Of a stretch of DNA of 64,000 nucleotides, positions 1 through 47,058 are shown in pieces; positions within the stretch are counted from its first letter, which is position 1, and the number at the start of each line of letters is the position of its first letter. The DNA lies in NCBI RefSeq assembly GCF_028728065.1, contig NZ_CP117812.1, forward strand, positions 558,001-622,000. Reading direction: 5' to 3'. The notes beneath the pieces were generated by a model that saw only the letters and a program-made list of their open reading frames with translations, was not told where the DNA came from and did no database searches. The position numbers were made by a program, and so were the translations under genes. The DNA comes from Lentisphaera profundi (GTDB lineage Bacteria > Verrucomicrobiota > Lentisphaeria > Lentisphaerales > Lentisphaeraceae).

Positions 1-122
1 AAGTGACCGACGCAAAGATCATCGGTGAAAACAGCGAGAACGCCGATATCGTCGTTTCCCCTTATCCCTCTGACCACCGCGCCGTGGTCGCGACTTTTAC
101 GCTAGCTAATCAAGGAAAATAA
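1..122 (+). CDS. Endonuclease/exonuclease/phosphatase (EEP) family protein, C-terminal end only
   Basis: The gene runs in from before the window; only its last 39 codons are here, read from base 3 to a TAA at 120-122. The tail has the EEP-fold terminal pattern: a stretch reading VVSPYPSDHRAVVATF, where the SDH triplet is the conserved catalytic Asp-His near the C-terminus of this metal-dependent family (DNase I-like phosphodiesterases and phosphatases). A near-identical tail occurs at 2429-2674 and related complete genes lie at 16713 and 30645. The stop codon overlaps the ATG of the next gene (TAATG), so the two are probably translationally coupled. Substrate cannot be told from this fragment. 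Confidence 0.8.
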   Translation, partial: VTDAKIIGENSENADIVVSPYPSDHRAVVATFTLANQGK

Positions 123-3594: not shown

Positions 3595-3640
3595 GCTAAA
3601 AAGTGTCCTGTCCCCTATGCTAAAAAGTGTCCTGTCCCCT
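3595..3640 (+). repeat. Tandem pair of GCTAAAAAGTGTCCTGTCCC
   Basis: Two copies, 24 bp apart, of a short motif. Variants occur at 18691-18705, 29262-29315 and 43575-43595, each time at the edge of a gene scrap or repeat block, so it marks rearrangement points or a small mobile repeat. Confidence 0.6.
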
Positions 3641-3660
3641 ACATCCCTCCTACATCCCCT

Positions 3661-3870
3661 CTGCCTTTTGCATTCAAGAGCGGCAAGGTGACCGGGCTCC
3701 GGGCAAGAGGCGGGTTAGCTGTCGATATCGAGTCGAAAAATGGCAAGCTGGTCTCTGCTACCATACTCAGTCTGGTAGGAACAGATTGTAGCGTTCTTTA
3801 CAAAGGGAAAACACGTCAACTATACCTAAAACAGGGTCAGACAATTCAGCTTGTTGAAAAAAATTTCTGA
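3661..3870 (+). pseudogene. GH95 alpha-L-fucosidase-like 3' fragment
   Basis: An open stretch of about 70 codons without a credible start. It reads LPFAFKSGKVTGLRARGG and continues with a beta-sandwich tail ending LVEKNF. The KVTGLRARGG...VDIE pattern is the usual C-terminal domain of GH95 fucosidases. The preceding 700 or so residues of the enzyme are absent. The stop lies 11 bp before an attC-like site, the position a cassette gene would have. It is not a copy of the tail of the complete GH95 gene at 60959, which differs clearly, so it comes from another paralogue. Confidence 0.65.
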
Positions 3871-3881
3871 CAGACATAGAT

Positions 3882-3945
3882 GTCTAACAAAGCTTTGCAC
3901 AGCGGTCCCAACGTACGTCGGGACGCGTGAACGCAGGCGTTAAGC
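3882..3945 (+). other. attC-like recombination site 1
   Basis: Begins GTCTAAC (fits R'' RYYYAAC) at 3882 and ends GTTAAGC (fits R' GTTRRRY) at 3939. Between them AAAGC, TTGCACAGCG and GCGTGAACGC form imperfectly paired L boxes: TTGCACAGC against TTCACGC leaves a G and an A unpaired on one arm, like the extrahelical bases of attC. The centre is a GTCCC/GGGAC stem. No integrase is in the window. Confidence 0.65.
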
Positions 3946-3986
3946 AGGTAAGTATCGGAGCATTTATTATTAATAATGGAGTTTTT

Positions 3987-6900
3987 ATGAAACGGATTTC
4001 ACTTGCAACAGGTATTGTTTTATTTTGTTTACTAAGATTGACAGGCGTGGCTCAGGCGGCGCAGATTAACTGGGGCCCGGCGACGGATGTTTTCTTGGCT
4101 TCGGAAGTGATTAACAGCGGAACGCTGATTGAGGCCTTTAATGCGGGCGGAAAAAAGTCCGGTAGCGATCAAACGGTAAACGGCGTGCTGTTTACCGGCA
4201 CCGACACGCTCCTGCCTTTGGACAAGAATGTAAACTTCTTTTCCGGAGATACAGGCGACGTGGCCTACAATGCGCTGCTCAGTTCCGCTGATTCCGGCGA
4301 CGGCAAGGATCTCGTTTCTCTAGAGGTCGGCGGCGGAAAACTGACTGTCGGCACCGAATATACGATTCAGTTGTGGTATGTTGATAATCGCGACAATCTC
4401 CAGATATCTGTCGGTGACAGAGAGACCCCTCCAAACGTGGTTACGCTGAAGAGTAAGCCCGAGAAGAGTACCCCCGAGAAGAGTACCCCCGAGAAGAAGA
4501 TTACCACCGGGCAGTTTGTGGTCGGCACCTTTGTTGCCGACGCAAGTACACAGACGATTACACTCAAGTCAGAAGGTTCGAACAATGTGCACATCTCAGC
4601 CTATCAGATTCGTGACCGCATTAGTGCTAAAGAGATGAAGGCTAATTTACCTAAGCAGCTGTCTGCGTTCCCATTTTCCTGGGATAAAGTAACGCGCTGG
4701 GCATATGCCCGAAAAGGCATAAATAAAAAATGGAAAAAAGAAGAGATAGATATAATGGGTACTAGGTGTAAGTACATCTGGATTCAGGAAGACAGCGAGG
4801 AATGCAACAACTTTAAGAAAGCCTACCCTAATAAGATGTATTGTTTTTCCTACATCAACCTGGAAAAGGTTTCTTATAAGCCGAATCCTTTCGAACCTAG
4901 GTATTTTCTGTATGGCAAAAATGGCGGAATATCCCTTTACTCAAGCGGGCAGATGAAATATAATCATGCAAACCCCGATTGTCGTAAATGGTGGCTGAAG
5001 ACTATCACAGAGATAGCCAACTCTTCTCCTAAGTCAGATGTTATTTTCATAGATAGTCTGCAGAAAGCATTGAGAATAGCCCACGGTGATTATTATGACT
5101 GTTGGCGTGGTCGCGTATCCCCTGATTTTTTTGGAAAAGCCCTGATCCCCTTACTCAAGTCCCTAAGAGACGAGCTTTCTAAAGATTTTATCATCCAAGG
5201 TAATTTCTTAAGAGCCGCCGGCGGCTATACCAAGGACGGCAACTTCTCTTATGTTAGAGATTATATCGACAGTGCATACATGGAAGGATTTGAGGGAAAG
5301 GGCTATATACATCACACCATTGAAATTGTCCAAAAGGCCGCTGCCCAAGGGAAAATGATCGCACCCAATTTCCATGCTTCAAATAAGTGCGGGAATATCG
5401 AGGAAGCGACAAAAAAAGCAAGCCAGGCTATGCCAACTTTTTGGGCAAGGCTTGAAGCTAAGAAGCCAACACCTAAAGGTAAGAAGCTAAGGCCTAAAGA
5501 TCAGAATGTATTTAATAAAGCTCAGAAGGAACAAGATGCATTAGCCTGTATGTATTCCAACTTTGATTTCAAACTGGCATATTTCCTTATAATGGCCGGC
5601 GAGAATTCATATATGCGCATTTCAAATCAGGTTGTGGCGGAGCGTGCAGGGACAGACATGTTTGGGATTGTCCCGCCATTCCCGGAATTTGACAGAAAAC
5701 TGGGTAGGCCTATTTCTGCCGGTGTCAGGGTAAGCGCTACCACCTGGCAACGGAAATTTGAATATTGCAAGGTGACTCTGAATGTTGATCATGACATCGC
5801 AGATATCGACTGGAGTTATCGCAGTGATGATAAATATGGAACAGAAAATATGGCTCTAGGCAAGCCGGCTACTCAGAGTAGCACTGTTGAGGGAGGTGTT
5901 GCTTCAAGAGCGGTTGATGGTAATACTGACGGGGATATGTCTAAGGGGTCTGTCAATCAGACTGGTAGTGGACCGGCCTGGTGGCAAGTCGATCTGGAAG
6001 CAATTAGGGAAATCGGCAAGATAGACGTCTGGAACCGGACAGGTAAGGAATCATCTCGTACTGCTGACTTTTATGTTATGGTCTCAATGGATCCTTTTTT
6101 ATCAAAAGACCTAAAAGAGACCCTGGCTCAGCCGGGTGTAACCGCTGTCAAGGTCGACGGCAAATGCGGTACTCCGTCTTCTCTACCGTTCAATATCGCA
6201 GGCCGGTATGTCCGGGTTCAGTTAACCGCTACCGCCGGGATTATAAATATGGCTGAAGTCCAAGTCTGGTCGGCGCTGGCGCGGAAGAATAATCCACCTG
6301 TCGCCACCGGGCAGAGCGTGAAAATGGCTATCAATAACGCCCTTGACATTACGCTCAGCGGAAGTGATGTTGAACTGGACACCTTGACGGCATCGCTCGA
6401 TACCATGCCGAGTCATGGAAAGGTAACTCTGGTTGGCAATGTGGCAACCTATCAGCCGGACAAGGATTACTCCGGTCCGGACAGCTTCACCTTCAAGGTG
6501 AAGGATGCAGACTTAACCAGCAAGGCGACGGCCACTGTCTCTATCGCGGTCGAATCATTGCTGTACGCTCATTGGGCGTTTGATGAGACCACCGGATCGG
6601 TCGCTAAGGATTCGTCTGGATACGGACGGGACGGCACCATAGTCAATGGGAAATGGGTAAAAGGGGTCAAAGGCAATGCGCTCAACTTTAATGGCACCAG
6701 CACGACCGTGAAATTGCCCGCGTCAACCTTCGCTTCGATCAGTGACGAAATCACGATTGCGATGTGGGTTAATGGGGGTGACGAGTCGACGAAGGGTTGC
6801 AATATCTTCAGTGCTCCGGCTGGGTCTGGCAAAAAGGAGGGGTTAGGTATTCTTCTGCCGTTTTCCTCCGGCTTTGTTTATTGGGATGCCGGAAAAGGCG

Positions 6901-7189
6901 AAAAGGGGCTTGATCGCATTAGGAAGCGGGCGAAGCCGGATCAGTATAAAGGCGCGTGGAACCATTGGGTCTTTACCAAAGATGCGAAGACTGGTGTGAT
7001 GAGCATCTATCACAATGGAGCGTTATTTATGACTGGTACCGGCAAAATAGGCTCGATCGGAACGATCTCTGGCGCCTCCATAGGGGGGGCGGGAAGTTGA
7101 TCTATAATGGCGCGATCGATAATGTCCGAGTGTACAAAAAAGCTCTAAGTGCTGATGAAGTCAATGAGTTATACCTGAAGAAGAAATAA
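3987..7189 (+). CDS. Large secreted putative glycoside hydrolase with F5/8C, Ig-like and LamG domains (frameshifted)
   Basis: The start at 3987 has GGAG 8 bp upstream and opens on a signal peptide (MKRISLATGIVLFCLLRL); an in-frame upstream start at 3927 lies in the attC-like site. Order after the signal: a beta-rich domain to about residue 200 with a KSTPE repeat linker; a region to about 640 resembling the GHL15-type putative glycosidase barrel (VIFIDSLQ, YMEGFEG); an F5/8 type C carbohydrate-binding domain (ALGKPATQSS ... YVRVQLTA); a bacterial Ig-like domain (YQPDKDYSGPDSFTFKV); and a LamG domain. A run of seven G at 7083-7089 puts the frame into a TGA at 7098. One more G would restore the LamG end to the TAA at 7187, so the gene is frameshifted, phase-variable or has a sequencing error. 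It lies between two attC-like sites. Confidence 0.75.
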
Positions 7190-7218
7190 TTAAGATCAAG
7201 AGTGGCTGAGAAACAGAA

Positions 7219-7282
7219 ATCGAACAAAGCATTGCACAGCGATCCCGACGTACGTCGGGATGCGTGAACGCAGGCGTTGGCA
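7219..7282 (+). other. attC-like recombination site 2
   Basis: Same length (64 bp) and layout as the site at 3882-3945: AACAAAGC, TTGCACAGCG, a central stem and GCGTGAACGCAGGCGTT. The central stem has changed from GTCCC/GGGAC to ATCCC/GGGAT, a compensatory pair change. The outer R'' box (ATCGAAC) and the R' end (GTTGGCA) are off-consensus, so it may be a decayed site. Confidence 0.6.
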
Positions 7283-7305: not shown

Positions 7306-7470
7306 ATGAAAGCAGAGCTAAGTGTATTGATCGCCCCGATGGTTATTACCCTCCCATTTGCCGGCATGGCCGATGTGCGGCCTGCGGGATTGTTTGCCGA
7401 TGGCATGGTGATTCAGCGTGAAACAAAAGCACCCCTCAATAAGTCTTTGGATAGACCATTAATCATCTAA
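7306..7470 (+). pseudogene. Sialate O-acetylesterase 5' fragment
   Basis: The ATG at 7306 opens a signal peptide followed by MADVRPAGLFADGMVIQRET, clearly related to the start of the intact esterase at 55511. After about 44 codons (at APL) the similarity stops and ten unrelated residues lead to a TAA. The whole catalytic part, including GQSN, is missing. The fragment begins right after attC-like site 2. Confidence 0.75.
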
Positions 7471-12515: not shown

Positions 12516-14069
12516 ATGATATATACAAGAATAATGGCTTTGCTTTTGATCGTGACGACCGTATCGGCGACCGAACTTGATACAAGTAAATCGCCCAATA
12601 TTCTTCTCGTTCTGGTCGATGATATGGGGTATTCCGACCTAGGATGTTACGGTGGAGAGATCAATACACCGACTATTGATAGTTTAGCGTCAAAGGGTTT
12701 GCGCTACTCGCAGTTCTATAACAGTGCTCGTTGCACGCCAACACGAGCAGCGATTCTGTCAGGTTATTACGCTCAGCAAATCAACCGCGATTCCGTTCTT
12801 GACTTAAAGGGAAAAGGTGTGCGCCCAAAGTGGGCGCGCTTGTTGCCGAAATATCTGAAACCTGCCGGATACCGCTCCTATCACTCCGGCAAGTGGCACA
12901 TTGATGGCAAGCCAATGGGGAATGGATTCGATCGTTCGTTATATATTGATAATCATGGTGAATTCAGTCCCAAGGTGCTTTTAAAAAACGGCAAAAGAAT
13001 AGAACCCAAGGATGGATTTTATGCAACGATCGCGGTGGCGGATCATGCAATAGAAGTGCTCAAGGAGCATCAGGCCCATCATGCGGACAAACCTTTCTTT
13101 TCCTATGTTGCATTTACCGCCCCCCATTTCCCCTTGCAAGCCTTGCCTGAGGATATTGCACGGGTAGGGGACCGCTACAAAGTCGGGTGGGATGTCATTC
13201 GCAATCAGCGCTGGGAAGGTTTGCAGAAACGGGGATTGATCAAGGGATCGCTCTCGAAGGTGGAGTACAATCAAGGCCCTCCGCTCGATTTTTCTGAACA
13301 GCTCAAAGTCCTTGGTGAGGGCGAGGTAACTCGTCCCATTCCTTGGAATGATCTCACTGAGAAACAGAAAGAGTTCCAGCAAGTCAAGATGACGATTCAT
13401 GCCGCAATGATCGAACGGATCGACATCGAACTTGCCCGCATTATCAAACAAGTCAAAGCAATGAATTCCTTTGAGGATACCGTGATATTCTTTTTGTCCG
13501 ATAATGGTGCCAGTGCGGAAATGATGGTGCGTGGTAATGGCCATGACCCTGAAGCTGCACCAGGTTCGGCAGGCAGTTATTTATGCCTGGGGCCGGCTTG
13601 GTCGACGGTAGCCAACACGCCATTTAGAAAGCATAAAATCTGGGCACATGAAGGCGGTAGCTGTACCCCCTTTATTGTTCACTGGCCAAAACATATTTCG
13701 CAATCTGGAGCGATCCGGGAAACAAGCGGGCATGTAATTGACCTGGTTCCCACCATTCTCGATTTAGCCGGCCTAAAGATGGCAAAGCAACGGGTCCCAT
13801 TCCCGGGCAAAAGCCTGCTCCCCTCATTTCGGAAGGACACGGAGGACGATCGAGTGCTCTGGTGGTCCCACCGAGGGAATCACGCCGTCAGAAATGGAAA
13901 CTGGAAGCTGGTCAAAAGCAAAGATGGCTCTTGGGAACTTTATGATCTAAAAGAAGACCGCGCAGAAACGAATGACCTAGCCGCTCAATATCCAGAAAAA
14001 GTCAAAGCGCTCACGAAGCAATGGGAAGCCCAAGTTGAGCAGATTCGGCAAATAAAGAAGCTGAAGTAA
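12516..14069 (+). CDS. Secreted Cys-type arylsulfatase-like sulfatase
   Basis: A 517-residue S1 sulfatase. Hydrophobic signal sequence 1-19 (ending VSA), metal ligands Asp35-Asp36 (LVDDMGY), active-site motif C73-T-P-T-R77 followed by AAILSGYYAQQ. SYHSGKWHID carries the conserved lysine/histidine region and FFLSDNGAS the second metal site. The tail has the family ending LYDLKEDRAETNDLAAQYPE. GGAGA lies 10 bp upstream of the ATG and the gene follows the previous one closely, so they are co-transcribed. It belongs to a different subfamily from its neighbours, which suggests complementary activities on one polysulfated glycan. Substrate unknown. Confidence 0.9.
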   Translation: MIYTRIMALLLIVTTVSATELDTSKSPNILLVLVDDMGYSDLGCYGGEINTPTIDSLASKGLRYSQFYNSARCTPTRAAILSGYYAQQINRDSVLDLKGKGVRPKWARLLPKYLKPAGYRSYHSGKWHIDGKPMGNGFDRSLYIDNHGEFSPKVLLKNGKRIEPKDGFYATIAVADHAIEVLKEHQAHHADKPFFSYVAFTAPHFPLQALPEDIARVGDRYKVGWDVIRNQRWEGLQKRGLIKGSLSKVEYNQGPPLDFSEQLKVLGEGEVTRPIPWNDLTEKQKEFQQVKMTIHAAMIERIDIELARIIKQVKAMNSFEDTVIFFLSDNGASAEMMVRGNGHDPEAAPGSAGSYLCLGPAWSTVANTPFRKHKIWAHEGGSCTPFIVHWPKHISQSGAIRETSGHVIDLVPTILDLAGLKMAKQRVPFPGKSLLPSFRKDTEDDRVLWWSHRGNHAVRNGNWKLVKSKDGSWELYDLKEDRAETNDLAAQYPEKVKALTKQWEAQVEQIRQIKKLK

Positions 14070-14136
14070 GGCTACTTAATGCATCATCAAGAAGAGGTAA
14101 AGCCAAAATGAATACTAAAACTAAGAGGTGAGTCAT

Positions 14137-15993
14137 ATGAAAAAAATATTCCTAATGGGATTGCTGACGGCAGCTTGCTGTTTTGCAGACCGCCCAAGCA
14201 AACCTAATGTAATCCTGCTCTTGACTGATGACCTCGGCTGGCAAGATGTAAAATGCTACGATATTGATGCACCATCTCCGATGGAGACACCCAATATTGA
14301 TGAGCTGGCGAAAAAGGGTGTGCAGTTCTGGCAAGGCTATTCACCCGCACCGAGCTGTGCGCCGTCGCGAGCTGCGATCCTGAGCGGAACCCACCCCGCT
14401 CGAGCCCAACAAACACATGTCTCCGGAGGCACCCCTCCAGCACCATATCGCAAGACGCTGCACCGTATGATGCCACCCTGGTATAGAGCAAGTATGCCCA
14501 TAGAAACCTTCACACTTGCCCAAGCACTACGAGACAATGGCTACATCACCGGACATAGTGGCAAGTGGCATTTATCTAAAGTTTATGGTGGCTATCCGCA
14601 ACCGCAGGATCATGGCTTTGATTGGAGCCGTAATAACCATGGCATTCTCACTGCAATGAAACCTCATCGCTTAAGCGGATTTGCCACAAATCAGGCCGAC
14701 GACCCCTATCGCCTCGACGAAAAGGGCTTCTGTACTGACCAAAATAGTGAAGACGCCCTCACTTTTGTTCGCGAAAACAAAGACAAAGCCTTCTTCCTCT
14801 ATTACGCCACCTTTCTCGTTCATACCCCGGTTCAAACACGCAGTGAACGACTGCTGAAAAAATATTGCGATAAATTGGGAGTAAAACTCCCTAAAAACCC
14901 GAAGGAGTGGAAGGGAGAGGGACAAACAAACCCATTTTACTGTGCCATGGTTGAGGAACTCGACTATTATGTAGGCGAGCTCTTCGATTACCTCGATACC
15001 ACCGAGGATCCGCGCTGGCCGGGGCATAAACTCAGCGAAAACACCTATATCATTTTTACCTCCGATAATGGCGGCATGGAAAAAATCCCTGGCGAGATCA
15101 TTACCGATAACTACCCCCTGCATCGCGGCAAAATTTCGGCCATGGAGGGCGGCGTCCGTGTCCCCCTCATTATCACCGGTCCGGGAATTACAGCCGGTCA
15201 GCAATCAGACGTCATGATTAATGGCCTCGATTTTTATCCCACGATTCTTTCTTGGACGGGAACTCAAAAACCCAAAGATAAAACCTTGGATGGTTGCGAT
15301 ATTTCCAAGCTACTCGTAAAAAACCCAGCTGACCCAGCACTTATACGAGAGCAAGATGGCTCGGTTCGCGACACCATGCTCTGGCACTTTCCCAACAGTG
15401 TGGCCTTGGAAAGTACAATCCGCATCGGCGATTATAAACTGATCCGTAATTATGATCACGTCAATAATATAAATGCGCCCGAGTTAGAGCTCTATCGTTT
15501 ATACGAAACTCGCGAGGGCAAACAAGTCCGCGATGACATCGAAGAATCAAAAAACCTCGTAAACAGCATGGCGGAAAAAGCCCAATCAATGAATCAAAAA
15601 CTCACAGAAGCTCTAACAGGCATGAAGGCTAGCTATCCCTATTACAACCCCCATTACAAAAACCCACTTCCGGGCAAAGAGAAAGTGCCTGTGGTGCTAT
15701 CCCACAAGCAGCAAGGCTCGGTGGTGGAATGTCGCTATCGGGAGAATGGAGGCAAAGTGATACGAGCCAATCTGCTGTATACCCTGAATGGTGGCGAGCC
15801 TGCAGAAGAATGGTTCCGGATGCCAGCCGAGGTGATGCCCGGGATGAAGGTGAGGGCCTCACTGCCTAAAGGGACGAGTCATTATCTTATCAACCTCATT
15901 GATGAAAACAATTTCCTCGTCAGCTATCCTGATATGGATAAGCCTACACCTAACAAGCCGGCTTCAGCTAAAGCGCTTAGCGCCGTAAGATGA
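14137..15993 (+). CDS. Secreted Cys-type sulfatase with C-terminal extension
   Basis: A 618-residue S1 sulfatase. The ATG at 14137 is chosen over the GTG at 14128 because GAGG sits 8 bp upstream. Signal peptide 1-18; metal ligands Asp31-Asp32 (LTDDLGW); active-site motif C74-A-P-S-R78; HSGKWHLSK and FTSDNGGMEK further on. After the core, a roughly 110-residue tail (from about 510, with SHKQQGSVVECRYRENGG) looks like an extra beta-rich domain, making it longer than its neighbours. Third gene of the tandem sulfatase operon, 67 bp after the second. Substrate unknown; no formylglycine-generating enzyme is nearby. Confidence 0.88.
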   Translation: MKKIFLMGLLTAACCFADRPSKPNVILLLTDDLGWQDVKCYDIDAPSPMETPNIDELAKKGVQFWQGYSPAPSCAPSRAAILSGTHPARAQQTHVSGGTPPAPYRKTLHRMMPPWYRASMPIETFTLAQALRDNGYITGHSGKWHLSKVYGGYPQPQDHGFDWSRNNHGILTAMKPHRLSGFATNQADDPYRLDEKGFCTDQNSEDALTFVRENKDKAFFLYYATFLVHTPVQTRSERLLKKYCDKLGVKLPKNPKEWKGEGQTNPFYCAMVEELDYYVGELFDYLDTTEDPRWPGHKLSENTYIIFTSDNGGMEKIPGEIITDNYPLHRGKISAMEGGVRVPLIITGPGITAGQQSDVMINGLDFYPTILSWTGTQKPKDKTLDGCDISKLLVKNPADPALIREQDGSVRDTMLWHFPNSVALESTIRIGDYKLIRNYDHVNNINAPELELYRLYETREGKQVRDDIEESKNLVNSMAEKAQSMNQKLTEALTGMKASYPYYNPHYKNPLPGKEKVPVVLSHKQQGSVVECRYRENGGKVIRANLLYTLNGGEPAEEWFRMPAEVMPGMKVRASLPKGTSHYLINLIDENNFLVSYPDMDKPTPNKPASAKALSAVR

Positions 15994-31959: not shown

Positions 31960-32553
31960 ATGAATCAAGAGCAAGCACTAGAATTTCTTCGTTCAAACAA
32001 TGGGGTTCATAGAACACGTGATATCCTTAATGCTGGGATTGCACCTAAAACTCTTTATAGACTAAGAGACCGAGGTCACATCTACTCTCTTTCTCGTGGT
32101 CTCTATCGAATTAATGAAGAAAGTACAGATGCTCACTCTAGCTACGTAGAACTTGCTCATAAGATCCCTAAAGCAGTTTTCTGCCTTATATCAGCTCTCC
32201 ACTTCCATGAAATAGGTACGCAACTACCTTACGACCATTGGATATCACTCCCTCAAGGAGTCAAAGAAGCTAAGCTTGATGAATACGACATTCAGTATAT
32301 CCACCCAAATAAAGAGCTTTATCAATTGGAAATTGAAGAACACAATATTTCAGGTGCTACTATAAAAGTTTACAGCCCTACTAAAACAGTAGTTGACTGT
32401 TTTAAACATCGAAATAAAGTTGGCATCGATGTCGCCTTGGAAGCTCTAAGAGAAGCTATACAACTGAAAAAGACATCACGTAAAGAACTTATTGAACTTG
32501 CCACTAAATGCCGTATGAGAAACGTAATGATGCCATATATCGAGTCCCTATAA
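31960..32553 (+). CDS. AbiEi-family antitoxin / transcriptional repressor
   Basis: A 197-residue protein of the type IV toxin-antitoxin AbiEi family. It starts with a winged-helix domain (VHRTRDILNAGIAPKTLYRL, then GHIYSLSRGLYRI), followed by the antitoxin domain (FCLISALHFHEIGTQLPYDH, YSPTKTVVDCFKHR). It should repress its own operon and counter the downstream nucleotidyltransferase toxin. Its stop overlaps the toxin ATG (TAATG at 32551-32555), giving tight coupling. An inverted repeat lies just upstream. No strong ribosome site is visible. AT-rich compared with the glycan genes, in keeping with acquisition. Confidence 0.85.
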   Translation: MNQEQALEFLRSNNGVHRTRDILNAGIAPKTLYRLRDRGHIYSLSRGLYRINEESTDAHSSYVELAHKIPKAVFCLISALHFHEIGTQLPYDHWISLPQGVKEAKLDEYDIQYIHPNKELYQLEIEEHNISGATIKVYSPTKTVVDCFKHRNKVGIDVALEALREAIQLKKTSRKELIELATKCRMRNVMMPYIESL

Positions 32554-33392
32554 TGAGTAAAGCAGCATCAGTTCAACAGCTTTTACGCAATCAAGCTAAA
32601 GCTCAGGATATCAATCCTAACATCCTCCAGGTCCGTTATTCCTTAGAACGCTTTCTTTATCGACTTGGTTTAAGTGAACATAAAGATCGAATCACTTTAA
32701 AAGGTGCTATGCTCTTTATATTGTGGAGTGATAAATCTTTTCGACCAACCAAAGATGCTGATTTTCTTATCACAGGTGACATTTCTCCTAACAATATCAA
32801 ACAAGTTGTCATCGACATTTGTAATATCGAAGTAGCGAACGATGATGCCATGGTCTACGATGCTGAAAGTATCAAAATTGTCCCTATTAAAGAAGACCAA
32901 GAGTATCAAGGGCTTCGAGTAACTCTCAAGTCTAAGCTTGGACATATACCTATACCTGTGCAGCTTGATATGGGAACAGGCGACGTCGTAACACCCCGTG
33001 CAACAGAAGCCGACTTCAAAGTCCTTATAGACACTCTTCCAGCTCCTCGACTTAAGGTATATAATCGTGAAACTGTAATAGCTGAGAAACTTCAAGCTAT
33101 GGTTTTATTAGACTTGACGAATAGTAGAATGAAGGACTTCTACGATGTCTGGATCATCTGTACTCAATTTGGTTTTGATAAAGAGATACTTAAAGAGGCT
33201 ATTGTATCTACTTTTAAGCGGCGTGGCACAAACTTTCCTTCTGAAGGCATTAGTTCACTCACTGAATACTTCTACGATGACCCTGCTATTAAAACTCGAT
33301 GGAAAGCTTTTACTAAAAAGCTAAAGCTTGACCTTAGTTTAAAACAAGTCTGTATTGATATTAAAGAATACTTAGAAGCTGTTCTTAAGTAA
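32553..33392 (+). CDS. AbiEii-family nucleotidyltransferase toxin
   Basis: A 279-residue protein of the AbiEii/AbiGii toxin family (nucleotidyltransferase fold; characterised members such as MenT act on tRNA). The ATG at 32553 overlaps the antitoxin stop; an earlier in-frame ATG at 32508 lies inside the antitoxin gene. The active-site pattern is visible: LKGAMLFILW around residue 50, then RPTKDADF (Arg64, Asp68, Asp70). Later ETVIAEKLQAMVLLDLTNSR, RMKDFYDVW is the usual C-terminal block. With the upstream gene it forms a complete type IV module, with roles in phage abortive infection or element maintenance. Confidence 0.87.
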   Translation: MSKAASVQQLLRNQAKAQDINPNILQVRYSLERFLYRLGLSEHKDRITLKGAMLFILWSDKSFRPTKDADFLITGDISPNNIKQVVIDICNIEVANDDAMVYDAESIKIVPIKEDQEYQGLRVTLKSKLGHIPIPVQLDMGTGDVVTPRATEADFKVLIDTLPAPRLKVYNRETVIAEKLQAMVLLDLTNSRMKDFYDVWIICTQFGFDKEILKEAIVSTFKRRGTNFPSEGISSLTEYFYDDPAIKTRWKAFTKKLKLDLSLKQVCIDIKEYLEAVLK

Positions 33393-33399
33393 CGAGAAA

Positions 33400-33600
33400 T
33401 TAAAGGGTAGGACTTAGAAAAAAAGTGAATTTTGTATGTAGCCCAAGCTTTAGAGACTGAGTGAAATACACTTCTAGGTGCAAGGCACCGACATGGAATA
33501 GCCTGTGACGTGAGTCACAGGATGTTCGTGAATATATTAACGAGGGCTCACTTGTGAGTCCGGCATAAAGTACCGAACCCAAAGGAGTCAAAAACTTGAA
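33400..33600. other. Intergenic stretch with several hairpins
   Basis: Contains AAAGGGTAGGACTTAG, AGCCTGTGACGTGAGTCACA (with GTGAC/GTCAC arms) and GGCTCACTTGTGAGTCC, several stems in 150 bp. It may be the end of an IS200-type element or an RNA; neither is proven. 33601-33826 is AT-rich and has TTAATTGTATTTTTTCTTCA, also found before the genes at 37622 and 43984. Confidence 0.3.
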
Positions 33601-35226: not shown

Positions 35227-36240
35227 TCAGTGATTATTAAAGTTATCGTCTATCTGTTGTAAGGTATCCAAAAGTTCTTCAAAACTAGGTTTCTCACCTC
35301 GGTAAAACATGTCGGTCATTTTTTCATAGTCCTTTGCCATTGCGTCACGAATCTCATCAGTTAGAGCCACTTTTAATGTAGGCTTACATGCTTCATCATA
35401 TTTTGCCGCTGCTTTTATAAACATCCTGCCTTTATGTTTTGCCACGTCTGCTAATAAATCAGTATTTTTTATAGCCTTTACTCCAATTTCACTTCTGTAT
35501 ATTTGATGAATATCATATATGTGACGGCTAAACCTATCTTTAACTCGTCCTGGATCATTGATATTGTTTTCTGCATGGAGGATCGTAATTTTCTCCCAGA
35601 ATGTTCTTTGGGGACTTAAGACTTTTACCTTCACAGCATCAAGCAACCCCTTAACGCACATCGCATCTATTTCCGTGATAGTATAAGGGTTATGCATTGC
35701 TTTCGTGCCAGTTTCTATGAGCACTCGTGGCGTCACATAATTATTGACTGGATATTCTATATCCCGTAATACTCTAGGGTACTCAAAGTATATATCTGCA
35801 CCATTATCACCTATATAAAGACTGTAAGCCCTTACATCATCCTCTTTCAATTTAGAATCTATTCCTGGAAGCAATTTATCACGTACAAAATCAGTTCCTG
35901 CTTTCTCCAGATCTTTTCTAATTTTATCAAGTTTAGCCCTACTCGGTTTAGGGTCAGCCATTGGATTCTTCTCACCTTCTCCAAAACCTAAATCTCCCAT
36001 ATTTAAGGAAAGATCAATATCTTCTGAAAAACGCTCAATTAGATTAAAACATTTAGATAATGAAGTCCCACCTTTAAAGGTATAATCATGATTGAGGTCT
36101 AGACGATTAAAAACCACATCTAATAAATAAGTAACCCAAAAGTCTTTTTCAATTGTCAATGCACTTAAATTGAAGGTCGCTGATGCTTTCCTAATAAGGG
36201 CAACTTGTTCAACCTTTAATAATTCAATGAATTTTTTCAT
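35227..36240 (-). CDS. AbiEii/AbiGii-family nucleotidyltransferase toxin, second module
   Basis: A 337-residue member of the AbiEii/AbiGii toxin family, from a different branch than the one at 32553. N-terminal IEKDFWVTYLLDVVF (Glu31-Lys-Asp-Phe-Trp) precedes FKGGTSLSKCF (Gly57-Gly58-Thr59-Ser60) and RFSEDIDLSL (Asp74, Asp76), the nucleotide- and metal-binding pattern. RTFWEKITILHAE near residue 220 is the family's second conserved block. Its ATG overlaps the antitoxin gene by 17 bp, so translation is coupled. The module sits between 136-bp direct repeats and faces the opposite way to the first AbiE module. Confidence 0.85.
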   Translation of the reverse strand: MKKFIELLKVEQVALIRKASATFNLSALTIEKDFWVTYLLDVVFNRLDLNHDYTFKGGTSLSKCFNLIERFSEDIDLSLNMGDLGFGEGEKNPMADPKPSRAKLDKIRKDLEKAGTDFVRDKLLPGIDSKLKEDDVRAYSLYIGDNGADIYFEYPRVLRDIEYPVNNYVTPRVLIETGTKAMHNPYTITEIDAMCVKGLLDAVKVKVLSPQRTFWEKITILHAENNINDPGRVKDRFSRHIYDIHQIYRSEIGVKAIKNTDLLADVAKHKGRMFIKAAAKYDEACKPTLKVALTDEIRDAMAKDYEKMTDMFYRGEKPSFEELLDTLQQIDDNFNNH

Positions 36241-37621: not shown

Positions 37622-40600
37622 GTGAATTGTGTTTTTTGTTCAAATGAGCTTCAATGGGAGAATGGTCATCCAAAGTGTGACTGTGGCGGAAATTATTTCA
37701 TCGCGCCTCAAGGAAGTTCTGAAGTTAAAATTGCCTGCCCCTGCTGTAGCCGCAATATTTTGTTAGATAATTCGACATACGGTCATAAAATTGCCTGTTC
37801 CTGCGACACCTACCTTGCTGTCATAGAAGCTCCTGCCTCAAGTCTATCATCGTCAGAACCACCACTCCACCTAGATTTAGTCAATGATACAGAGAATCAA
37901 AGTGAAGCCATTGTAGAAAACCCCGTATTCACAAAAAAGACCCCAAGCAAGACTAAGCCTAATTTTGGACAAAAGAAGCGTAAACTAAGGCAGACGACTG
38001 AGACCAAGCGTAAGCTAAGGCAGACGACTGCGATCAAGCGTGATCGAAACAAAACTTCAAGTAAACAAGACCGTCCGAGCAATAAAAAGAAAAAATCTAT
38101 AGTATTCATTTCCGCAATAGTCACTATCTCACTGATTGCTGGATATTTTTTATATAGCCCCTTGCTAGGAGAAAAGGGTGTTTTTGCTAATTTCGCAAAT
38201 ACTGATGCTGAGGACAATCATCATCCTCTAGAGGACTCAAATGGGGTTCACCTTAATCCTGACATACTCAATCGCTTTCTCTCCAGTCATTGCACTGAAT
38301 GCCATGGCACTGATAAACAAAAAGGAGACACTAGGCTAGACACCCTAACACTAGCGATCTCCAATAGCGACACCGCTCAACATTGGCAAGAAGTACTCGA
38401 TGCTCTTAACCTCGGTGAAATGCCTCCGGAAGACGAGCCGCAACCAAGCAAGGAAGAACTTGAAAGCATCATCGAGCACCTCACCATTGCACTGCAGACC
38501 TCAAAAAAACGCCTCTCTGAAGACGGCGGAAATATCGCACTGCGCAGAATTAATCGACGTGAATATAGATACAGCATTGAACACTTACTCGGAATGAATG
38601 TCCCCGAAAAGATCCTACCACCAGACGCCATCACAGAAGGGTATGATACCGTAGGACAAGACCAACATTTTTCCAGCCATCACTTTGACGACTATTTTGA
38701 AACGGCTAAGTCCGTCGCCACCGTCGCCCTTAAATGGGTAGACAAAGAGAAATCGGCTCCAACATCGCGTACATACCCAGCGGAAGGCCAACATAAACAC
38801 ATGTATAAAAAGTTCAAAAGTTTGAGCGCATATGTCACTATGGCAAAAGCTAGAGGCGGGTACATAGACAGACGCAAAAAAAATATGCATACCGCACTAG
38901 AGAATTACATCAAGGTGCCCTATAATGATAAGGGCGTTTTTGTACTTGAAGGCTCTCATTATGGGTCTCATCCTGGTGATAATTTCTTAGTAGATCCGAG
39001 AGCGAGCTATAAGTTGACGGTGAAAGCAGGGCTCGTAGCTGAGTCCCCCGCAATTCGCCATTTTTTAAAGGTCACTGTTGGGCCTAGAATCCTCGGGTAT
39101 CTCAAAGCCTCCGGCTCACTGGAGTCACCACAAGAAACGCAAACTCTGGAATACCAAGCGCAATTTTTTGAATCACCATATGCCAGATTCGGGCTCTCGG
39201 AAAACAAAGCAGGCGCTCCGATCAAAAAGTACCTTGAACAGATAGGAGATAAAACAGGTAAAGCGGCTATCTGGCTAGATGAAATGACTATAAAAGGACC
39301 ATTCTATAAGCAAGCCTCAGCGATCGAAACCATCTACAAGCAAACGATTGCCACCGTAGATGCAAGCAAGGGTGATCCGGAACTAGACCTACAAGCCAAA
39401 CAGTTTTTGAAAGGATTCATGAACAAGGCCTTTCGAGGTAGAGATCCCGCACCTGAGTATGAGCAGCTCGTCCTTAAAATATACAGTCTCGATCGCAAGC
39501 AGGGCAAAGAGCTCAAAGAATCTCTCATCACCCCTCTAGCGATGATCCTCAGCTCTCCCAGCTTTCTCTACCTCATGGAAGACGCCCCCGCCACAAAAGA
39601 AGGTGTCGTCAATGAGGTGGAATTCGCCAATCGAATCTCACACTTCCTCTGGAGTCACTCAGCATCAGAGGAGCTTCTCGCAGACGCTAAAGCCGGCAAG
39701 CTAAAGGACAAGGCAGTGCTAAAAAAACACATCAACTGGATGCTCAAGCAAAAAAACAGCTTTGCACTCTCGGAAGGTTTTTTCGATCAATGGGTAGATA
39801 TGGAGCGATTTGAATCCATTGGTATTGATGAAAACTCCCACGTAAAATTCAACAACGGCGTGCAGCATTCTGCTAAACTCGAAGTGCAACATTTCTTTCA
39901 TACCTTGCTAAAGGAAAACCTCAGCCTTACTCAACTCATAGACTCAGACTTTGTCGTCATCAATGACTTGTTAGCCTTACATTACGGGCTGAACGCGCCC
40001 AATAAAGGAAATGAATTCCACAAAGTCAAACTCCCCGCAGACTCACCACGTGGAGGGCTACTCGGAACCGTAGCATTCCTCTCGATGGGCTCAAATGGCG
40101 AACGCGCATCACCCATTATCCGTGGTGCATTGATTCAGGAAAAATTCTTTAACAGAAAACCTCCGCAACCGCCTCCTAACGTCCCTGAACTAGAAGATGT
40201 CAGTGACAAAGTCTTAAGCGTAAGAGAAAGTATTGCCCTTCACCGTCAGCAGGCTCAATGCGCATCCTGCCATCGTAGTTTCGATCCCTTGGGATACGGC
40301 TTAGAAAACTTTGACTTGATAGGACTCTGGCGCGACCAGGAGATAATAGAAAATATGAGTGAGGAAAACAAAAAAATCACCTCTGTTCCGATAAAAGCTG
40401 AAGGGGTATTCCCGAACAAAAAACCCTTTCATAATCTGGATGAATTCCGCACGGGGCTCATGGCACACAAGCACCTGCTGACGCGCTCTATCACTGAAGG
40501 CCTCTTATCCTACGGACTAGGTAGACACATCGAATTTGCCGACCAGCAAGCACTCGATGAGATCTGCCAGAAAGCCAGCCAAAACAATGAACAAATCGGC

Positions 40601-40696
40601 GATATTATCTACTCCATTATCAGCCATCCCCTTTTCAGAAGAGCTGATCAAGCTTCCGCCACCGCAAGTTCCAAAATGAGGACAAGTAAATTATGA
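37622..40696 (+). CDS. Zinc-ribbon, planctomycete cytochrome-c, DUF1592-type protein (copy A)
   Basis: A 1024-residue membrane protein of the PVC-specific DUF1587/DUF1592/DUF1588/DUF1585 architecture. It starts at a GTG (MNCVFC...). The N-terminus has Cys pairs typical of zinc ribbons (CVFC, CDCGG, CPCC, CSC) and a basic repeated linker (KRKLRQTTETKRKLRQTTAI), then one membrane helix at about 160-178. Outside lies a cytochrome-c motif C224-TECH followed by KGDTRLDTL, then the DUF blocks, with CASCH at 880 in DUF1588 (CASCHRSFDPLGYGLENFD). Function of this class is unknown; redox or polymer oxidation is proposed. The stop overlaps the DUF1552 start (ATGA). A near-identical copy is at 43984. 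Confidence 0.88.
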   Translation: MNCVFCSNELQWENGHPKCDCGGNYFIAPQGSSEVKIACPCCSRNILLDNSTYGHKIACSCDTYLAVIEAPASSLSSSEPPLHLDLVNDTENQSEAIVENPVFTKKTPSKTKPNFGQKKRKLRQTTETKRKLRQTTAIKRDRNKTSSKQDRPSNKKKKSIVFISAIVTISLIAGYFLYSPLLGEKGVFANFANTDAEDNHHPLEDSNGVHLNPDILNRFLSSHCTECHGTDKQKGDTRLDTLTLAISNSDTAQHWQEVLDALNLGEMPPEDEPQPSKEELESIIEHLTIALQTSKKRLSEDGGNIALRRINRREYRYSIEHLLGMNVPEKILPPDAITEGYDTVGQDQHFSSHHFDDYFETAKSVATVALKWVDKEKSAPTSRTYPAEGQHKHMYKKFKSLSAYVTMAKARGGYIDRRKKNMHTALENYIKVPYNDKGVFVLEGSHYGSHPGDNFLVDPRASYKLTVKAGLVAESPAIRHFLKVTVGPRILGYLKASGSLESPQETQTLEYQAQFFESPYARFGLSENKAGAPIKKYLEQIGDKTGKAAIWLDEMTIKGPFYKQASAIETIYKQTIATVDASKGDPELDLQAKQFLKGFMNKAFRGRDPAPEYEQLVLKIYSLDRKQGKELKESLITPLAMILSSPSFLYLMEDAPATKEGVVNEVEFANRISHFLWSHSASEELLADAKAGKLKDKAVLKKHINWMLKQKNSFALSEGFFDQWVDMERFESIGIDENSHVKFNNGVQHSAKLEVQHFFHTLLKENLSLTQLIDSDFVVINDLLALHYGLNAPNKGNEFHKVKLPADSPRGGLLGTVAFLSMGSNGERASPIIRGALIQEKFFNRKPPQPPPNVPELEDVSDKVLSVRESIALHRQQAQCASCHRSFDPLGYGLENFDLIGLWRDQEIIENMSEENKKITSVPIKAEGVFPNKKPFHNLDEFRTGLMAHKHLLTRSITEGLLSYGLGRHIEFADQQALDEICQKASQNNEQIGDIIYSIISHPLFRRADQASATASSKMRTSKL

Positions 40697-41976
40697 GTCT
40701 ACACTTATATAATCGACGCACCATGCTCAAAGCAGGATTTACCGCCCTCGCGCTGCCCTTCATGGAGTCGCTCGCTATGGGAAAATCGGCTAACACAGTA
40801 GCGCCAAAACGCTTCCTTTTCATCGGCTGTGGCTACGGATTCAGTAAAAAGAATTTCTTCCCTACAAAAGCAGGGAAATTCTCAAAAATAGGACTCACTC
40901 CAGGACTCAAGCCGCTAGAACGCCACAAAGATGATATTACCATGGTTTCGAACCTCACCAACCTGGGTGCCAGAAATCCTCACGCTGGTAGTACTACATA
41001 CCTCACCGGAGCTGACGTTGGAGGTACAAGAGGGCGGAAATTTATTAATGGCATCTCACTCGACCAAGTCATTGCTCAGAAAATCGGTCAAGACACCCGC
41101 TTCGCCAGCCTCTCACTCAGTGGTGAAGGAGAAGGAAATGATGGCCATGGACCGGGACTCTCACTCTCCTGGTCGGATAAAGGGCATCCCATTCCAGGCA
41201 TCAAAAATCCCCTCGCCCTCTATCACGAACTCTTCGGTCAAAGCAAAGAAAGCAATGCCGAACGCGAGTACCGCCTCTCGCAAAAACGTAGCATCCTCGA
41301 TGCCGTCGTCGCGGACCTGAAATACTCCCGAAGGAAACTCAGTAAGACCGATCAAGATAAATTAGAAGACTACCTGCAATCGATTCGTCAGATAGAGCAA
41401 ACTATTAGCCGTGAAGTTCAATGGGCAGACACAGCAAAAGCAAAGGCTCCACTGCAAAAACCAGGAGCCACCATGGACGGTCTCCAATCACTCATGACTC
41501 TCCAGCGTCTTATGGTAGCCGCCTTTCAAACCGACTCCACTAGGGTAATTACCTACAAACAGCCCGTAAGCCCCTTGCTCGCAAGCTGGGAAATTAATGT
41601 CGGCGCACACACACTCTCCCACCAAAATCATTCTCACCAAGGCGCTTCCAATTTAAAAGACTTTAAATCCATGGAACTCTTCTCAGGCCTCATCGACCTA
41701 TTTAAAAATACCCAGGACCTCAATGGCAAAAGTCTCTTTGACTCCACCCTCATCAGCTATGGCACAAACATCCGCCAAACTCATAGTCTCAGAGGCTGCC
41801 CCGCCATCTACACCGGTGGCGCCGCAAGTAAACTCAAAACCGGCGAGCACATCATCCTGCCAGAAGAAGACACGCCACTAGCCAACTATTGGCTCACCCT
41901 CTGCCAACAATCAGGCGTAGAGATGGATAGCTTCAGTCACAGCACGGGAACTCTCAATAAACTTATTCGCTCTTAA
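40693..41976 (+). CDS. DUF1552 exported protein (copy A)
   Basis: A 427-residue DUF1552 protein, the usual partner of DUF1592/DUF1588 proteins in Planctomycetes and relatives. A Tat-like leader ([20 protein letters not shown]) suggests export in folded form. DUF1552 is related to the DUF1501/sulfatase-like alkaline phosphatase fold, but no clear catalytic set is visible; conserved-looking blocks are [26 protein letters not shown] and [12 protein letters not shown]. It overlaps the preceding gene by 4 bp, so the two proteins are probably made in equal amounts. Function unknown. A near-identical copy lies at 47055, and a 72-residue piece of a third copy is embedded in the ORF at 43123. Confidence 0.88.
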
Positions 41977-43983: not shown

Positions 43984-46900
43984 GTGAATTGTGTTTTTTG
44001 TTCAAATGAGCTTCAATGGGAGAATGGTCATCCAAAGTGTGACTGTGGCGGAAATTATTTCATCGCGCCTCAAGGAAGTTCTGAAGTTAAAATCGCCTGC
44101 CCCTGCTGTAGCCGCAATATTTTGTTAGATAATTCGACATACGGTCATAAAATTGCCTGTTCCTGCGACACCTACCTTGCTGTCATAGAAGCTCCTGCCT
44201 CAATTCTATCGTCGTCAGAACCACCACTCCACCTAGATTTACTCAACGATACAGAGAATCAAAGTGAAGTCATTGTAAAAAATCCAGTACCCACTCCAAA
44301 GACCCAAAGCAAGACTAAGCCTAATTTCGGAAAAAAGAAGCGTAAACTAAGGCAGACGACTGAGACCAAGCGTAAGCTAAGGCAGACGACTGCGATCAAG
44401 CGTGATCGAAACAAAACTTCAAGTAAACAAGGCAGTCCCAGCAAGAAAAAGAAAAAATCTATAGTATTCATTTCCGCAATAGTCACTATCTCACTGATTG
44501 CTGGGTATTTTTTATATAGCCCCTTGCTAGGAGAAAAGGGTGTTTTTGCTAATTTCGCAAATACTGATGCTGAGGACAATAATCACCCGCGACAAGACTC
44601 AAATGGGGTTCACCTTAATCCTGACATACTCAATAGTTTCCTCTCCAGTCATTGCACAGAGTGCCATGGCACTGACAAACAAAAAGGAGACATCAGGCTA
44701 GACACCCTAACACTAGCGATCTCCAATAGCGACACCGCTCAACATTGGCAAGAAGTACTCGATGCACTTAACCTCGGTGAAATGCCTCCGGAAGACGAGC
44801 CGCAACCAAGCAAGGAAGAACTCGAAACCATCATCGAGCACCTCACTATTGCACTGCAGACCTCAAAAAAACGCCTCTCTGAAGACGGCGGAAATATAGC
44901 ACTACGCAGAATCAATCGACGTGAATATAGACACAGCATTGAGCAGTTATTGGGAATGCATATAAGCGAATCTATCCTACCAGCAGATGCCATCACCGAA
45001 GGGTACGATACCGTAGGACAAGACCAACACTTTTCTAGCCATCACTTTGACGACTACTTTGAAACGGCTAAGTCCGTCGCCACCGTCGCCCTTAAATGGG
45101 TAGACAAAGAGAAACCGGCGCCAAAATCACGTACATACCCAGCGGAAGGCCAACATAAACACATGTATAAAAAGTTCAAAAGTTTGAGCGCATATGTCAC
45201 TATGGCAAAAGCTAGAGGCGGGTACATAGACAGACGCAAAAAAAATATGCATACCGCACTAGAGAATTACATCAAGGTGCCCTATAATGATAAGGGCGTT
45301 TTTGTACTTGAAGGCTCTCATTATGGGTCTCATCCTGGTGATAATTTCTTAGTAGATCCGAGAGCGAGCTATAAGTTGACGGTGAAAGCAGGGCTCGTAG
45401 CTGAGTCCCCCGCAATTCGCCATTTTTTAAAGGTCACTATTGGGCCTAGAATTCTCGGCTATCTCAATGTCTCCGGCTCACTGGAGTCACCACAAGAAAC
45501 GCAAACTCTGGAATACCAAGCGCAATTTTTTGAATCACCATATGCCAGATTCGGGCTCTCGGAAAACAAAGCAGGTGCTCCGATCAAAAAGTACCTAGAA
45601 CAGATAGGAGATAAAACAGGTAAAGCGGCGATCTGGCTAGATGAAATGACTATAAAAGGACCATTCTATAAGCAAGCCTCAGCGATCGAAAGCATCTATA
45701 AACAAACCATTGCGACCGTAGATGCTAATAAGGGCGATCAAGAACTAGACCTACAAGCCAAACAGTTTTTGAAAGAATTCATGAACAAGGCCTTTCGAGG
45801 TAGAGATCCCGCACCTGAGTATGAGCAGCTCGTCCTTAAAATATACAGTCTCGATCGCAAGCAGGGCAAAGAGCTCAAAGAATCTCTCATCACCCCTCTA
45901 GCGATGATTCTCAGCTCTCCCAGCTTTCTCTACCTCATGGAAGACGCCCCTGCCACAAAAGAAGGTGTCGTTAATGAGGTCGAATTCGCCAATCGAATCT
46001 CACATTTCCTCTGGAGTCGCTCAGCATCAGATGAGCTTCTCGCAGATGCTAAAGCCGGCAAGCTAAAGGACAAGGCAGTGCTAAAAAAGCACATCAACTG
46101 GATGCTCAAGCAAAAAAATAGTTTTGCACTCTCGGAAGGCTTTTTTGATCAATGGGTAGATATGGAGCGATTTGAATCCATTGGTATTGATGAAAACTCC
46201 CACGTAAAATTCAACAAAGGCGTGCAACATTCTGCTAAACTCGAAGTGCAGCACTTCTTTCACACCCTGTTAAAGGAAAACCTCAGCCTCACTCAGCTCA
46301 TAGACTCAGACTTTGTCGTCATCAATGACTTGTTAGCCTTACATTACGGGCTGAACGCGCCCAATAAAGGAAATGAATTCCACAAAGTCAAACTCCCCGC
46401 AGACTCACCACGTGGAGGGCTACTCGGAACCGTAGCATTCCTCTCGATGGGCTCAAATGGCGAGCGCTCATCCCCCATTATTCGTGGCGCGCTCATCCAG
46501 GAAAAGTTTTTTAACAGAAAACCTCCGCAACCGCCTCCTAACGTCCCTGAACTAGAAGATGTCAGTGACAAAGTCTTAAGCGTAAGAGAAAGCATTGCCC
46601 TTCACCGTCAGCAAGCTCAATGCGCATCCTGCCATCGTAGTTTCGATCCCTTGGGATACGGCTTAGAAAACTTTGACTTGATAGGACTCTGGCGCGACCA
46701 GGAGATAATAGAAAATATGAGTGAGGAAAACAAAAAAATCACCTCTGTTCCGATAAAAGCTGAAGGGGTATTCCCGAACAAAGAACCCTTTCATAATCTG
46801 GATGAATTCCGAACGGGACTCATGGCACACAAGCACCTGCTGACGCGCTCTATCACTGAAGGCCTCTTATCCTACGGACTAGGTAGACACATCGAATTTG

Positions 46901-47058
46901 CCGACCAGCAAGCACTTGACGAGATCTGTGAAAAAGCCAGCCAAAACAATGAACAAATCGGCGATATCATCTACTCCATCATCAGCCATCCCCTTTTCAG
47001 AAGAGCTGATCAAGCTTCCGCCACCGCAAGTTCCAAAATGAGGATAAGTAAATTATGA
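43984..47058 (+). CDS. Zinc-ribbon, planctomycete cytochrome-c, DUF1592-type protein (copy B)
   Basis: A 1024-residue protein, same length and domain order as the one at 37622: N-terminal Cys pairs, a membrane helix at about 160-178, heme motif CTECH near 224, DUF1587/1592/1588/1585 blocks and CASCH near 880. Differences are scattered, densest in the linker (residues 75-115) and around 320-330 (HSIEQLLGMHISESILPAD against YSIEHLLGMNVPEKILPPD), where a short patch looks exchanged rather than drifted. GTG start, again behind the ATGACC/AGGGGTCAT stem. Overlaps the next gene by 4 bp. The duplication distance is 6362 bp. Confidence 0.88.
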   Translation: MNCVFCSNELQWENGHPKCDCGGNYFIAPQGSSEVKIACPCCSRNILLDNSTYGHKIACSCDTYLAVIEAPASILSSSEPPLHLDLLNDTENQSEVIVKNPVPTPKTQSKTKPNFGKKKRKLRQTTETKRKLRQTTAIKRDRNKTSSKQGSPSKKKKKSIVFISAIVTISLIAGYFLYSPLLGEKGVFANFANTDAEDNNHPRQDSNGVHLNPDILNSFLSSHCTECHGTDKQKGDIRLDTLTLAISNSDTAQHWQEVLDALNLGEMPPEDEPQPSKEELETIIEHLTIALQTSKKRLSEDGGNIALRRINRREYRHSIEQLLGMHISESILPADAITEGYDTVGQDQHFSSHHFDDYFETAKSVATVALKWVDKEKPAPKSRTYPAEGQHKHMYKKFKSLSAYVTMAKARGGYIDRRKKNMHTALENYIKVPYNDKGVFVLEGSHYGSHPGDNFLVDPRASYKLTVKAGLVAESPAIRHFLKVTIGPRILGYLNVSGSLESPQETQTLEYQAQFFESPYARFGLSENKAGAPIKKYLEQIGDKTGKAAIWLDEMTIKGPFYKQASAIESIYKQTIATVDANKGDQELDLQAKQFLKEFMNKAFRGRDPAPEYEQLVLKIYSLDRKQGKELKESLITPLAMILSSPSFLYLMEDAPATKEGVVNEVEFANRISHFLWSRSASDELLADAKAGKLKDKAVLKKHINWMLKQKNSFALSEGFFDQWVDMERFESIGIDENSHVKFNKGVQHSAKLEVQHFFHTLLKENLSLTQLIDSDFVVINDLLALHYGLNAPNKGNEFHKVKLPADSPRGGLLGTVAFLSMGSNGERSSPIIRGALIQEKFFNRKPPQPPPNVPELEDVSDKVLSVRESIALHRQQAQCASCHRSFDPLGYGLENFDLIGLWRDQEIIENMSEENKKITSVPIKAEGVFPNKEPFHNLDEFRTGLMAHKHLLTRSITEGLLSYGLGRHIEFADQQALDEICEKASQNNEQIGDIIYSIISHPLFRRADQASATASSKMRISKL

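Follow-up and report, generated by a model that had tools for sequence, protein, structure and literature searches.

Probable stranded attC sites of a minority type flank a GHL15 gene in Lentisphaera profundi

Judged by their structure, two 64-bp sequences in the window (the whole 64,000-nucleotide stretch that was analysed, C2:558001-622000 of a genome of two contigs and 5.46 Mb) are attC sites. We assign a probability of about three in four to the reading that they are genuine sites of a minority type, forming a small relic CALIN on one replicon while the integrase-bearing arrays lie on the other. The ends of the two sites have lost the match that a mobile cassette shows, so the pair looks like the stranded relic of a gene capture by the integrons that this genome retains elsewhere. 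In its present form the interval between them, 3940-7276, probably does not amount to an intact, reusable cassette.

Structure of the two sites

The original prediction had described two sequences on the attC plan, 3337 bp apart, and both were found as described (Table 1). Site 1 does have perfect RYYYAAC/GTTRRRY ends, with R boxes GTCTAAC and GTTAAGC, and its predicted crossover falls at the boundary between G3939 and T3940. In site 2 the R boxes are ATCGAAC and GTTGGCA; AAC and GTT are kept, the departures from the consensus (one in the first box and two in the second) are confined to three outer positions, and both sites carry R boxes of the attC kind. AAAGC follows AAC in each site, as had been noted. 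The L boxes are also as predicted, with two unpaired bases on one arm: TT(G)CAC(A)GC pairs with GCGTGAA, leaving the G and A bulged, and site 1 has an extra third bulge, a G at column 23. In both sites, then, the L arms pair and the extrahelical bases are confined to one arm, as expected of an attC, and double changes conserve the pairing in other genomes.

The compensatory stem change reported between the sites, from GTCCC/GGGAC to ATCCC/GGGAT, is real. Otherwise the two differ little: the changes fall at a few positions of the stem and spacers and among the outer bases of the R boxes, and the resident attCs vary in the same places. Sites 1 and 2 may be descendants of one duplicated copy. Their L arms are pristine, which is an odd fit with an old relic.

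The pattern shared by the two sites had 0 expected matches in shuffled sequence. A simple rule describing attC ranked site 1 first and site 2 second of 672 candidates on both strands of 255 kb. It asked for AAC and GTT suitably spaced, an L stem with bulges, R bases that follow the consensus and an interior that folds. The rule was not fitted to these sequences, but it was written with attC in mind after the sites had been seen, and its weights too were chosen then. A site in a sister species (G002) came near the top of the same untrained scan. A covariance model was built from sites 1 and 2 and a third copy on contig C1, and is therefore not independent of them; it gave site 1, one of its own sources, 89 bits and found ten sites in five Lentisphaeria genomes. 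Across these ten related sites paired cells made up 90.7%, compared with 14-44% when the partners were slid, and six cells had changed on both sides against 1.5 in shuffles. As the alignment of the ten sites was fitted to the structure, this covariation is supportive rather than independent. The folding z-scores were modest (-0.6 to -2.1), with thermodynamics alone separating the sites poorly from shuffles, so the evidence for the sites is the attC pattern and not stability. An Rfam search of the window gave no match to an attC-like family.

Table 1. Positions of the two sites, neighbouring genes, related attC copies and arrays. Plain numbers are window positions; C1 and C2 are the contigs of this genome (G000).
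Feature	Position	Strand	Details
attC-like site 1	3882..3945	+	R'' 3882-3888, L'' 3895-3903, L' 3925-3931, R' 3939-3945
attC-like site 2	7219..7282	+	R'' 7219-7225, L'' 7232-7240, L' 7262-7268, R' 7276-7282
GH95 C-terminal scrap	3643..3870	+	Pfam PF21307 (Glyco_hydro_95_C), E 1.5e-12
GHL15 (PF14885) gene	3987..7189	+	secreted; F5/8 type C, Ig-like/cadherin-like and LamG domains
Acetylesterase-type gene, truncated start	7306..7470	+	similarity to full paralogue L017:11929-14874
Type-B clean copy	C1:2779737-2779797		closes array 2, after gene with GH141-type domain and beta helix
Type-B decayed copies	C2:547765 and C2:557104		upstream of window sites, same contig
Array 1	C1:1893019-1915174		beside tandem integrase pair
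Array 2	C1:2782269-2807788		meets integrase at C1:560 if C1 is circular
IS91-transposase cassettes (L142-L147)	G000:C1:1896746, 1899687, 2787077, 2800303, 2802948, 2807406

Integrases, arrays and related sites

The genome encodes four full-length integron integrases above the TIGR02249 curated cut-off, all on contig C1 (at 560, 652492, 1889559 and 1890850), and contig C2 has none above that cut-off. Those of the proteins that were read directly have what we take to be the IntI-type segment ahead of the HTLRHSFATHLLE motif. The original prediction had called the arrangement integrase-less and had proposed a genome-wide search for an IntI gene and more sites. The description stands locally, as no integrase lies near the sites, but not for the genome, where that search returned the four integrases, two arrays on C1 and further sites of the same type. 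A complete integron has intI and attI beside its array; no intI above the cut-off lies beside the window sites.

The attCs of the two arrays, type A (AACCATGAGCTGCAG...CTAATCTCGGTCGTT), differ from those of the window, type B. Type B comprises sites 1 and 2, one clean copy on C1 and two decayed copies on C2. The last type-A attC of array 2 (G000:C1:2782220-2782000 region; L018 about 14000-14330) is cut after CTCTAACCATG, and the GH141-type gene and the clean type-B attC directly follow; an integrase therefore did not make this join cleanly. R' of site 2, GTTGGCA, is complementary to R'' of this C1 site, TGCCAAC, which may be chance given the many comparisons. A generic scan of integrase-bearing loci showed attC types to be species-specific within the genus and gave no clear source of the window's type in other Lentisphaeria.

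Across the class, 20 attCs of type B or a related type were counted, and for 14 of them a gene on the same strand ends within 60 bp; of positions taken at random in this genome, 8% do so (p about 1e-11). By Pfam, eight of the 18 upstream genes are glycosidases, sulfatases or sialidase-like, a count that includes one GH67 C-terminal match below the curated cut-off; among 66 ORFs drawn at random from this genome, at least seven have such domains (Fisher p 0.003, rising to 0.03 with a background of 12). Because this comparison mixes genomes, takes possibly duplicated sites as independent and uses a lower-bound background, the tendency of related attCs in the class to follow polysaccharide genes is suggestive only. 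A search of the literature for integron cassettes with sulfatase and glycoside hydrolase returned nothing relevant by title.

The interval between the sites

In a circular cassette, folding of the attC brings together R' from the start of the cassette and R'' from its end, and the two pair. Of the 57 intervals in the resident arrays, 43 had R' and R'' as exact complements, where about 4 would be expected: the four outer bases matched fully in 24/31 and 19/26 consecutive intervals of the two arrays, against about 2 each after shuffling. Seven of the 14 exceptions have the predicted partner heptamers about 60 bp apart inside the interval, bounding an unseen attC of another type. Since hidden attCs resolve these exceptions, the rule is strong in this genome, and it holds too in a type-B-like array of another genome (G066).

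The window interval fails this test. Its R' (GTTAAGC) and R'' (ATCGAAC) match at 0/4 outer bases and share the GTT/AAC core only, and in the stretches of 3.9 to 5 kb each that were searched upstream and downstream, all four R boxes lacked a partner heptamer. The interval is therefore probably no intact cassette, though the sites look real, and both results weaken the earlier claim that 3939-7276 is one intact cassette. In two sister species, represented by one genome each, the flanks are not syntenic and no empty site was found.

The GHL15 gene starts 47 bp past the expected crossover and stops 29 bp ahead of site 2. Its open frame is 3927-7100, with a frameshift at a run of seven Gs near 7086-7092, and its last 30 or so codons lie in another frame, to the TAA at 7187-7189. 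The run thus ends the frame early and leaves the LamG part at the C terminus out of frame in the assembly, which may reflect a sequencing error, phase variation or a pseudogene. No homologue of the gene was found in the other 197 of 198 Lentisphaeria genomes (E <= 1e-10), which is consistent with acquisition.

The neighbouring genes bore out the original description. The GH95 scrap ends 11 bp before site 1, with its stop codon at 3868-3870, and the acetylesterase scrap starts just after site 2, its similarity to the paralogue spanning 7306-7434 and the scrap diverging after about 7434. As a Pfam search of this 43-aa scrap gave no match, the acetylesterase label rests on the full-length paralogue on the same contig.

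Several repeats lie around these genes. Tandem GCTAAAAAGTGTCCTGTCCCC units are found at 3595-3640, directly ahead of the GH95 scrap, and the sister species G002 (L070) has similar AAAAAGTATCCTGTCCC repeats. Downstream of the acetylesterase scrap, a 48-bp perfect palindrome at 7527-7574 matches its own opposite strand. Repeated C-terminal scraps of an endonuclease/exonuclease/phosphatase-like family occur at window positions 1-118 and about 2413-2675, with two full copies of the family at L017:9843-11916; the locus has undergone much duplication and rearrangement.

Discussion

A CALIN has been defined as at least two attC sites with no integrase nearby (IntegronFinder 2.0, PMC9024848). The window sites, 3337 bp apart with no integrase near, fit this working definition, so the CALIN arrangement first proposed holds locally. 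About half of Xanthomonas genomes have CALINs away from the main locus (PMC12444791), and the window likewise has two close attC sites and no near integrase in a genome with complete integrons elsewhere. It differs from a CALIN in having only two clean sites, a 3.3-kb interval, an attC type other than that of the resident arrays, and R' and R'' boxes without partners. Cambray et al. 2011 (PMC3108266) included L. araneosa in their integrase set, and the integrases and large arrays of near-identical attCs on contig C1 are like the sedentary chromosomal integrons of Lentisphaera, whereas the window sites are of another type and on the other contig. Single-cassette insertion at secondary or attG sites is discussed in PMC2426708 and PMC12444791, the latter citing Loot et al. 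2024. Single attCs after genes outside arrays, seen for the window's type, resemble such insertion; however, insertion of this kind should keep R' and R'' complementary, and those of the window are not.

The missing R'/R'' partners, the decay of two type-B copies and the truncation of the genes on both sides are signs of a relic. It seems probable that integrons of this lineage captured large cassettes with a second attC type, which were then stranded on the C2 replicon. The sites would have arrived as the 3' ends of large cassettes with secreted polysaccharide enzymes, and, by analogy with known integron biology, the joining at G|TT would have been the work of an IntI with the folded single strand as its substrate. 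Later rearrangements would have cut the GH95 and acetylesterase genes and removed the cassette boundaries. Secondary-site insertion, rearrangement between replicons or movement within a duplicated locus are candidate routes of the sites onto C2. An IntI from the other replicon might still act on them in trans.

Could 3940-7276 instead be an intact mobile 3.3-kb cassette that an integrase working in trans placed at site 1? The close fit of a single gene between crossover and site 2, the uniqueness of the GHL15 gene to this genome within the class, and the presence of integrases in the genome are all what such a cassette would show. We nevertheless consider it unlikely, because no outer base matches where 43 of 57 resident intervals match fully and seven more contain hidden attCs, and because no partner heptamer is nearby. 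The absent partner boxes would also suit sequences that are not attCs at all but intergenic palindromic repeats, or hairpins of a terminator- or stability-like kind at 3' ends, that were carried along as polysaccharide loci duplicated; the sites do lie at gene 3' ends, in a region with many duplicated gene scraps. Such repeats would not be expected to have one-sided bulges, R boxes and variable outer R bases, or L arms that covary across families of the class. One copy closes an integrase-bearing array, and no T run follows the hairpin, all of which makes this origin very unlikely.

We might also be seeing cassettes in formation, in which resident polysaccharide genes gained an attC at their 3' end while still without a 5' boundary. 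This would explain why single attCs at gene 3' ends in several Lentisphaeria genomes have no upstream R' partner in the flanks examined. We give it scarcely any weight, since the flanks of many loci are short (1.5 kb) and partners may lie outside them, the decay of old cassettes explains the same pattern, and the GHL15 gene looks acquired rather than resident. Cassettes in formation are the extreme case of a broader idea, that across Lentisphaeria type-B cassettes have on repeated occasions carried genes for large secreted enzymes of polysaccharide use (sulfatases, glycosidases, lyases and sialidases) and left them outside arrays. We regard repeated carriage as doubtful, though less so than its extreme case; if true, integrons would be one route of assembling polysaccharide utilisation loci.

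Integrons are chiefly associated with antibiotic resistance and with cassettes of small size. In a phylum of marine sugar degraders, the presence of stranded attCs next to large polysaccharide genes suggests a possible metabolic role for integrons. Exact R'/R'' complementarity is a simple sequence test for a true attC-bounded cassette, and here it located unrecognised attC types.

Additional observations

Tandem same-strand integrases, one typical and one divergent (about 275 bits), are found at G000:C1:1889559-1891779 and, in the sister species, at G002:C47:7870-10089. Six near-identical copies of a gene cassette of about 1.57 kb encode an IS91-family transposase (PF04986 and PF14319), and a search of this genome found them confined to the two arrays. 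The cassette has R' GTTGTAC and its own attC, GTACAACCAATCGTTGGAACTGATC...CTCGAACGTT. We had considered these 1.6-kb transposase insertions at GTT|GTAC as an attC-targeting IS91 element, and rejected this when the R'/R'' test gave a cassette with its own attC.

Elsewhere in the window, two gene pairs at 37622-41976 and 43984-48338, spaced about 6.4 kb apart and with ORFs of the same lengths (1024 and 427 aa), apparently arose by duplication. Planctomycete-type cytochrome domains occur in the first of the 1024-aa proteins. Positions 31960-33392 hold an AbiEi/AbiEii type IV toxin-antitoxin pair, another AbiEii gene is at 35227-36240, and an Acido-Lenti-1 RNA above the Rfam gathering score lies on the minus strand at 33476-33521.
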